In this document: one piece after another, positions 54,331 through 56,054 of the stretch
Layout of the letters: each line of letters begins with the position of its first letter
Numbering within the stretch: position 1 is the first letter of the stretch
Assembly (NCBI RefSeq): GCF_025751555.1
Contig: NZ_JAOWLB010000002.1
Location: 310,001-374,000 of the forward strand
Length of the DNA stretch: 64,000 nucleotides
From: Ruegeria aquimaris
GTDB taxonomy: Bacteria; Pseudomonadota; Alphaproteobacteria; Rhodobacterales; Rhodobacteraceae
Reading direction: 5' to 3'
Notes under the pieces: generated by a model
Database searches by the model: none
What the model was told of the DNA's origin: nothing
Seen by the model: the letters and a program-made list of their open reading frames with translations, nothing else
Made by a program: the position numbers and the translations under genes

Positions 54331-55467
54331 ATGCTGCGCCAGGTCACCCATACCGACCAGATCGTTTCCCTGGAGTTTTCCGACGGCACAACTGCCCGGT
54401 TTCACGCCATCTGGCTGCGCGACAATGCGCTGGACCCGGACACCCGCGCGCCTGGCAACGGCCAGCGCCTGATCACAATCGGCGACATTCCGGCCGACCT
54501 GTCCATCAGCACCGCTTCTTTGGTCGGCGGCGCGCTGTCGGTGACCTTTCAGCCCGAGAACAAGACCGTCACCTATCCGGCCGACTGGCTGGCTGTGCAT
54601 GCCTATGACCGGGATCACGACCACCCGATGGGCTGGACTGCTCCGGGCATCACCACCTGGGAAAACGGGATCGCCGCGCCCAGCGCCGACTGGGGCAGCA
54701 TGCATACCAATCCGGCGATCAAGCGCGACTGGCTGGCGGCAGTGGCAGAATTCGGCTTTGCCCGGCTGACTGGCGGGCCCACCGAACCCGGCGCACTGCT
54801 CAAGGTGGCAGACCTCTTCGGGTATGTGCGGGAAACAAACTATGGGCGTTACTTCGAGGTGCGGACCGAGGTGAACCCCACCAACCTCGCCTATACCGGG
54901 CTGGGCCTTCAGGCTCATACCGACAACCCCTATCGCGACCCGGTGCCGACGCTGCAAATCCTCTATTGCCTGGAAAACAGCGCCGAGGGCGGCGACAGTA
55001 TCGTCGTCGACGGCTTTCGCGCGGCAGAAAGGTTGCGGGATGCCAATCCCGAAGGGTTCGCGCTGCTCTGTGGCTATCCGGCCCGGTTCGAATACCGGGG
55101 CTCGGACGGGGTCTGTCTGCGCGCGCGGCGCCCGATGATCGAACTGTCCCCCGACGGCCAGATGATGGCGATCCGGTTCAACAACCGCTCGTCGGCCCCG
55201 TTCGTGGATATCCCCTTCGACAGGATGGAGGCCTATTACGCCGCCTATCGCCAGTTGGCGGAGTTCATCGACGACCCGGCGATGGGGGTCGCGTTCAAGC
55301 TGGAACCGGGCGAATGCTTCATCGTCGACAACACCCGCGTGTTGCACGCGCGCACCGGCTATTCCGGTGCCGGGTCACGCTGGCTGCAAGGCTGCTACGC
55401 CGACAAGGACGGATTGCTCTCGACCCTCGCCGCGATGGATGCGGTGCATCCGGAGGCGGCGGAATGA
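54331..55467 (+). CDS. tmpA: 2-(trimethylammonio)ethylphosphonate dioxygenase TmpA
   Basis: A 378-residue Fe(II)/2-oxoglutarate dioxygenase of the gamma-butyrobetaine hydroxylase (BBOX) fold. The metal triad is His196 and Asp198 in [20 protein letters not shown] and His339 in [15 protein letters not shown], with Arg350 for 2-oxoglutarate. The N-terminal domain has [20 protein letters not shown], which lacks the zinc cysteines of BBOX. Such genes were long called BBOX, but the pairing with an HD-domain oxygenase identifies TmpA, which hydroxylates TMAEP at C1 to the (R)-alcohol. AAAGGAGAG precedes the ATG. It overlaps tmpB by 4 bases (ATGA). Substrate is inferred from context. Confidence 0.88.
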
Positions 55468-56054
55468 AACCGGATTTCACAAGTCTGGATCACGGCAACA
55501 TCGTGGCCTTCCTCGCCGATATCTTCGCCCGCCGCGGTGGCGAGGAATATCTCGGCGAACCGGTGACCATGGCCCAGCACATGCTGCAGGGCGCGACCAT
55601 CGCCGAACAGAACGGCTTGCCCGAGGAAATCATCGTCGGCGCGCTCCTGCACGATATCGGGCATTTCACCTCGGAATTCGGCACCTACCACCCCGCAGAC
55701 ACCGAGGACCGCCACCACGAGGATGCAGGCGAGGCGGTGCTGGCGCCGTTCTTCCCGCCGGTGATCACCGATTGTGTCAAGTACCACGTGGCGGCCAAAC
55801 GCTATCTCTGCGCCACCCGGCCCGAGTATTTCGCGCGCCTGTCGCCCGCCTCGGTCCATACGCTGCAATTGCAGGGCGGCCCGATGAGCGCCGAAGAGGT
55901 GGCGGAATTCGAGACCAACCCGAACCTCAAGGCGATCATCCAGGTCCGCTATCTGGACGAGGCTGGCAAGCGCGCGGACATGGAAACCCCAGGATTCGAC
56001 CATTTCGCGCCGATGGTTCAGCGCATGGTCGACAGGCATCTCGGGATAGGCTGA
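55464..56054 (+). CDS. tmpB: (R)-1-hydroxy-2-(trimethylammonio)ethylphosphonate oxygenase TmpB
   Basis: A 196-residue HD-domain mixed-valent di-iron oxygenase of the PhnZ/TmpB type. Putative iron ligands are His39, His63, Asp64, His85 and His108 (in [24 protein letters not shown] and [11 protein letters not shown]) plus a late Asp in [11 protein letters not shown]. Tyr29 and Glu32 in [11 protein letters not shown] correspond to the PhnZ lid pair Tyr24/Glu27, with a constant offset of 5 that also fits most ligands. It cleaves the C-P bond of the TmpA product with oxygen, giving glycine betaine and phosphate. The ATG lies inside the tmpA stop (ATGA). A hairpin repeat follows the stop. Confidence 0.9.

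Follow-up and report, generated by a model that had tools for sequence, protein, structure and literature searches.

Does a dioxygenase that resembles gamma-butyrobetaine hydroxylase (BBOX), encoded directly in front of an HD-domain protein in Ruegeria aquimaris, belong to carnitine metabolism or to the use of a phosphonate? The two genes lie on the + strand of a stretch of 64,000 nucleotides (hereafter the window) in a genome of 5.04 Mb. The first, tmpA (54331..55467), encodes a predicted Fe(II)/2-oxoglutarate hydroxylase of 378 aa and the second, tmpB (55464..56054), a predicted HD-domain mixed-valent diiron oxygenase of 196 aa. Both frames are open at these coordinates, and an ATGA (55464..55467, + strand) contains both the stop of tmpA and the start of tmpB, as the preliminary description of this DNA had said. 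The motif AAAGGAG is found upstream of tmpA. The ATG start of the gene is conserved throughout the 50 loci aligned; apart from the window, these were picked for a TmpA match beginning at residue 1. Judging from the ATGA overlap, translational coupling of the two genes is likely, and they would probably share one transcript.

We are very confident, from sequence comparison, that the pair is an orthologous two-step TmpA/TmpB pathway, predicted to turn 2-(trimethylammonio)ethylphosphonate (TMAEP) into glycine betaine and phosphate; it is probably expressed as a single transcript and probably under LysR control. In the predicted first step TmpA, with Fe(II) and 2-oxoglutarate (2OG), would hydroxylate C1 of TMAEP to the alcohol (R)-1-hydroxy-TMAEP; TmpB, with its mixed-valent diiron site, would then split the C-P bond oxidatively, giving glycine betaine and phosphate. 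For this host both reactions are predictions, supported by the characterised orthologues of Leisingera. Rajakovich et al. reportedly showed the two reactions in 2019 with TmpA and TmpB of Leisingera caerulea. The pathway is already characterised in this related roseobacter and the window pair is an ordinary new example of it. In the part consulted, a review treats the Leisingera TMAEP pathway as known and quotes an estimate that tmpB-type genes occur in less than 1% of surface-ocean bacteria (PMC10574752), and TmpA/TmpB is given as the sole described degradation pathway for TMAEP in PMC10590968.

In a search against all PDB chains the best solved structure for the window TmpA was Leisingera TmpA (6npb, E 6.8e-191) and that for the window TmpB was Leisingera TmpB (6npa, E 1e-101); with such values the resemblance is not a matter of chance. 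Both NCBIfam equivalog models were passed, NF049936 (TmpA) with 599.2 bits for a cut-off of 400 and NF049941 (TmpB) with 347.8 bits for a cut-off of 300. These matches, together with the place of the first protein in the Leisingera TmpA clade (see below), bear out the TmpA/TmpB identity proposed in the preliminary description. The likeness to the L. caerulea enzymes (6npb/6npc/6npd; 6npa) extends over the near-full length of both proteins, to the catalytic and phosphonate-binding residues and to the gene order; as far as seen the only difference is sequence divergence.

The window TmpA also shares features with BBOX1 (4bg1/3ms5), namely the fold, the HTD...H iron triad and, by prediction, a trimethylammonium-type substrate. 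BBOX-fold domains were found in it, it exceeds the cut-off of the older BBOX model (TIGR02409, 432.8 versus 414.75 bits), and BBOX1 is matched in the same PDB search with an E value of about 5e-49. These are the grounds for taking it as a true gamma-butyrobetaine hydroxylase of the carnitine pathway, beside an HD-domain hydrolase adjacent by chance. We consider this extremely unlikely, because the protein resembles TmpA far more closely (599 bits; E 6.8e-191), because a phylogenetic tree separates the window TmpA from BBOX1, and because the HD gene adjoins tmpA in all of the best 80 loci and has as its best structure TmpB, an oxygenase. It had been expected that automatic annotation would hide the function of both genes. 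NCBIfam 20 names the two proteins correctly, so that annotation need not do so and the concern is outdated, although the BBOX model is passed as well, at a score well under that of the TmpA model, and this may explain past misnaming of such proteins.

The maximum-likelihood tree was built on 55 aligned rows: a TmpA clade of 34 rows, BBOX1, and 20 other rows outside (L025, partial, and L158 and L164, which duplicate the genes of L023 and L030, were left out, and L019 has no TmpA). The window TmpA falls within a clade of eight rows (support 100/99) that contains the Leisingera 6npb row and is itself enclosed in the 34-row TmpA clade (support 100/100). Grouping with a characterised BBOX, named beforehand as an outcome that would speak against TmpA, was not observed in this tree, human BBOX1 lying outside the TmpA clade. 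Several outer rows have long branches (3.25 for BBOX1), so it is uncertain how the rows beyond the TmpA clade branch. The window pair is orthologous to TmpA/TmpB, retains their catalytic residues, clusters with them and stands in conserved synteny.

The iron triad of the window TmpA is found where it had been placed, HTD occupying 196-198 and the distal His being residue 339 (H196, D198, H339). R350, which we take to be a 2OG-binding residue, is conserved. The phosphonate-binding residues of TmpA are described as N187, N287 and R288 (PMC9296572); they correspond here, with a constant offset of 2, to N185, N285 and R286, and the Leisingera row has the same residues in those columns. Human BBOX1 has an Ala in the column of the Arg, one of its differences from the window protein along with its separate place in the tree and its role in the carnitine pathway. 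Arg286 is present in 34/34 clade rows, and also in 3/3 adjoining TmpA-like rows and 5/18 distant BBOX-like rows; because of these last it supports the substrate and does not by itself prove it. N285 is not invariant, being A or S in 9 of the 34 clade rows. We examined the site in 114 loci, which are not independent, some genomes being in two subsets. It is readable in 112 of them, as N/N/R (103), N/A/R (4) or N/S/R (5).

The nine TmpA variants with Ala or Ser at the N287 site (L048, L053, L058, L059, L060, L162, L056, L156 and L159) have neighbours of their own: a Zn-dependent alcohol dehydrogenase (6/9), an MFS transporter (5/9) and an enolase-superfamily protein (5/9), with LysR in 0/9. Within the available flanks, which are short for L154-L162, these three neighbour genes are found beside 0/103 N/N/R loci. 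The enolase-superfamily gene is also present at L054, the TmpA site of which is unreadable. Such loci may represent a form of TmpAB that acts on a different substrate or whose product goes a different way.

In the window TmpB, Tyr29, Glu32, His39, His63, Asp64 and His85 all occupy the positions first reported for them. With His108 and Asp165 the H...HD...H...H...D diiron set is complete. The protein has the loop pair Y29 and E32 (YxxE) and the ligands H39, H63, D64, H85, H108 and D165; the eight positions read YEHHDHHD in 113/113 readable loci of the 114. The loop pair is numbered Y24/E27 in PhnZ and Y30/E33 in TmpB in the consulted part of PMC8177086.

These features are shared with the oxidative pathway for 2-aminoethylphosphonate (AEP), in which PhnY and PhnZ (4mlm, 4n71) likewise combine a hydroxylation with C-P cleavage by an HD oxygenase that has the YxxE and the diiron ligands. 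The window pair could then be of the PhnY/PhnZ type, acting on AEP or on another phosphonate and not on TMAEP. PhnZ is indeed homologous to the window TmpB (E about 5e-29), which also matches the Phn-HD model TIGR03276, though below its cut-off (198.9 versus 214.6 bits). But TmpB is ahead of PhnZ by about 237 bits, and the HD protein passes NF049941 while remaining below the cut-offs of both the Phn-HD and the hydroxymethylphosphonate models. Moreover, the known substrate of PhnY/PhnZ is the unmethylated AEP, whereas TmpA is said to be highly substrate-specific (PMC10574752, in the part consulted) and TmpB to convert 1-hydroxy-AEP inefficiently (PMC11203657, likewise). On this evidence a PhnY/PhnZ-type pathway is very unlikely.

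The predicted use of TMAEP as substrate is in turn shared with DfmD (9j0j), a 2OG oxygenase for which TMAEP is a substrate according to PMC9296572. DfmD carries out a rearrangement and a desaturation in dehydrofosmidomycin biosynthesis. A DfmD-like role of the first protein, rearranging TMAEP in phosphonate biosynthesis, has a negligible probability. DfmD is homologous to the window TmpA, but only at an E value of 2.7e-30, far behind 6npb, and the similarity to TmpA is vastly higher. The residue equivalent to TmpA N187 is Ser in DfmD in the same source and Asn here, and no sign of phosphonate biosynthesis was seen in the seven window proteins that were scanned. We thus rejected the DfmD, BBOX and PhnY/PhnZ readings, and retain TmpA/TmpB.

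Among the best 80 of 583 relatives retrieved with TmpA as query, a TmpB gene lies directly 3' of tmpA in 80/80 loci, a count that includes two shorter loci (L136 and L142) outside the counting coordinates, 78 being within. In the family sample the same arrangement is found in 26/27 loci, our own included (L019 is without TmpA and L025 is partial). The nearest titled loci, by TmpA, are those of Ruegeria sp. PrR005 (93%) and R. pomeroyi SZCCDBG043 (91%). TmpB is over cut-off in only 26 of 198 family-sample genomes, which makes tmpAB an accessory pair.

A scan of seven window proteins turned up neither a transporter nor another phosphonate gene next to the pair. The neighbouring BenE gene is present in 6/80 loci, and the aldehyde dehydrogenase gene in 2/80 at 92-100% identity plus one at 36%. 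BenE, the aldehyde dehydrogenase, a peroxiredoxin and a 117-aa protein were considered as parts of the pathway and rejected as unconserved. The context is more telling in one relative (G079, locus L057), where tmpAB lies directly behind genes for phnW (478.1 bits, cut-off 400.8), phnA (504.3, cut-off 407.55) and phosphonoacetaldehyde dehydrogenase (763.8, cut-off 635.65), and is followed on its 3' side by genes for a class III aminotransferase, an EamA transporter and a Na/Pi-cotransporter-type protein. This cluster links tmpAB with the use of phosphonates by a line of evidence separate from the homology of the enzymes.

Several other loci deserve a description of their own. A cluster in genome G007 (L061) is flanked by the same ORF families as the phnW-phnA cluster in G079; its short TmpB-like gene (L061:7202-7708) is missing one His ligand as well as the Tyr of the loop, and its tmpA is a trace of 37 residues, so that it looks like a decaying copy. 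A 222-aa protein is encoded directly behind tmpB in L036 (8722-9387), L037 and L044 and is absent at that place in the window; in L036 the protein contains a domain that resembles ureidoglycolate lyase. In genome G036 an intact-looking TmpB (L049:7877-8449, 71% identity) retains the eight site residues in full; TmpA is absent from the surrounding 16.5 kb, and this near-complete genome gave no match to the TmpA family. Diverged pairs of a TmpA-like protein (43-47%) and an HD oxygenase (38-39%) occur in other families of the class (L163, L165 and L166). Their TmpA-like proteins pass NF049936 and their HD proteins fail NF049941; for the latter the Phn-HD model, of the PhnZ type, is the best in 2/3, and of these two L166 is just over the Phn-HD cut-off. 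More distantly, L180, L181 and L182 have BBOX-like proteins (32-36% to TmpA) next to HD proteins that have no YxxE where the loop lies. L180 and L182, the two tested, passed no cut-off, and two of the three genomes are of only about 1.4-1.5 Mb. These are possibly an uncharacterised pair of hydroxylase and HD oxygenase.

On the other side of tmpA a divergent gene for a LysR-type regulator (53377..54231, - strand; Pfam HTH_1 and LysR_substrate) is a candidate regulator of tmpAB. We take the conserved ATG at position 54231 as its start, although the longest ORF reaches a TTG at 54255; the start codon (CAT at 54229-54231 on the forward strand) is conserved in 50/50 sequences. A divergent LysR homologue is present in 74/80 of the best 80 of 583 relatives (68 within strict coordinates and six just outside) but in only 11/26 of the family-sample relatives; at about 40% identity such homologues may include non-orthologous genes. 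The divergent LysR is also found in the Leisingera-titled loci, among which L. caerulea itself does not figure. In the Ruegeria and Leisingera loci it is the one gene that is conserved next to tmpAB, BenE and the aldehyde dehydrogenase not being kept. Thus the conserved unit in these loci is LysR-tmpA-tmpB. It is well established that LysR regulators occur beside C-P hydrolase operons (PMC10574752), and a LysR accompanies an HD protein in Achromobacter (PMC11203657), both in the parts consulted. A LysR for tmpAB was not described in the literature searched, parts of sources to which the primary 2019 paper does not belong, and we claim no priority. The regulator would probably control tmpAB in response to the substrate or the intermediate.

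Column conservation across the 50 sequences reveals an intergenic block (54257..54279), a candidate LysR operator, which in the window contains the inverted repeat GGCAT-N10-ATGCC (54259-54278). This is the single exact match of the repeat in the window, for 0.26 expected and at least one in 24/100 shuffled windows. The operator reading is weakened by this last figure and by three other points: the block consensus (of the TTAATTGTCGTAATGCCA type) matches 40/50 sequences but neither the window nor its two nearest relatives; the arms are not perfect in most of 14 aligned sequences; and the conservation of the block could reflect a promoter instead. Two further sites in the genome match the repeat within 3 mismatches, both with 3. 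We rejected them as operators, since they lie inside long ORFs (461 aa in L185 and 456 aa in L186). Tentatively, and with slightly less than an even chance in our estimate, the LysR protein may serve specifically to sense TMAEP or the product of its hydroxylation, binding the conserved block with GGCAT-N10-ATGCC and inducing tmpAB regardless of phosphate.

The Pho box has the consensus CTGTCAT-N4-CTGTCAT. With up to 3 mismatches to it, no Pho box was found near tmpA, and the window holds 2 matches for 3.5 expected. The C-P lyase region of the same genome holds 3, for 1.0 expected (at least 3 in 11/200 shuffles). The scan, a weak one, suggests that tmpAB may be no obvious Pho-box target. This C-P lyase region was recognised from PhnJ (475.5 bits); we take the ORFs around it to be a phn cluster, PhnJ alone being matched to a model. 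No PhnW over cut-off was found in the host genome (best 94 bits).

The TMAEP pathway is thereby not confined to Leisingera but reaches into Ruegeria, a marine group that has been studied a great deal. We infer that the host takes up TMAEP, runs the pathway under the LysR regulator and uses its products; TMAEP could supply it with both phosphate and the compatible solute glycine betaine without C-P lyase. Beyond this extension and the simple handle that the candidate regulator and operator offer on when the pathway switches on, the locus is ordinary. If the LysR protein does sense TMAEP or the hydroxylated form of it and induces tmpAB whatever the phosphate level, phosphate and glycine betaine would be released from TMAEP even when phosphate is plentiful.
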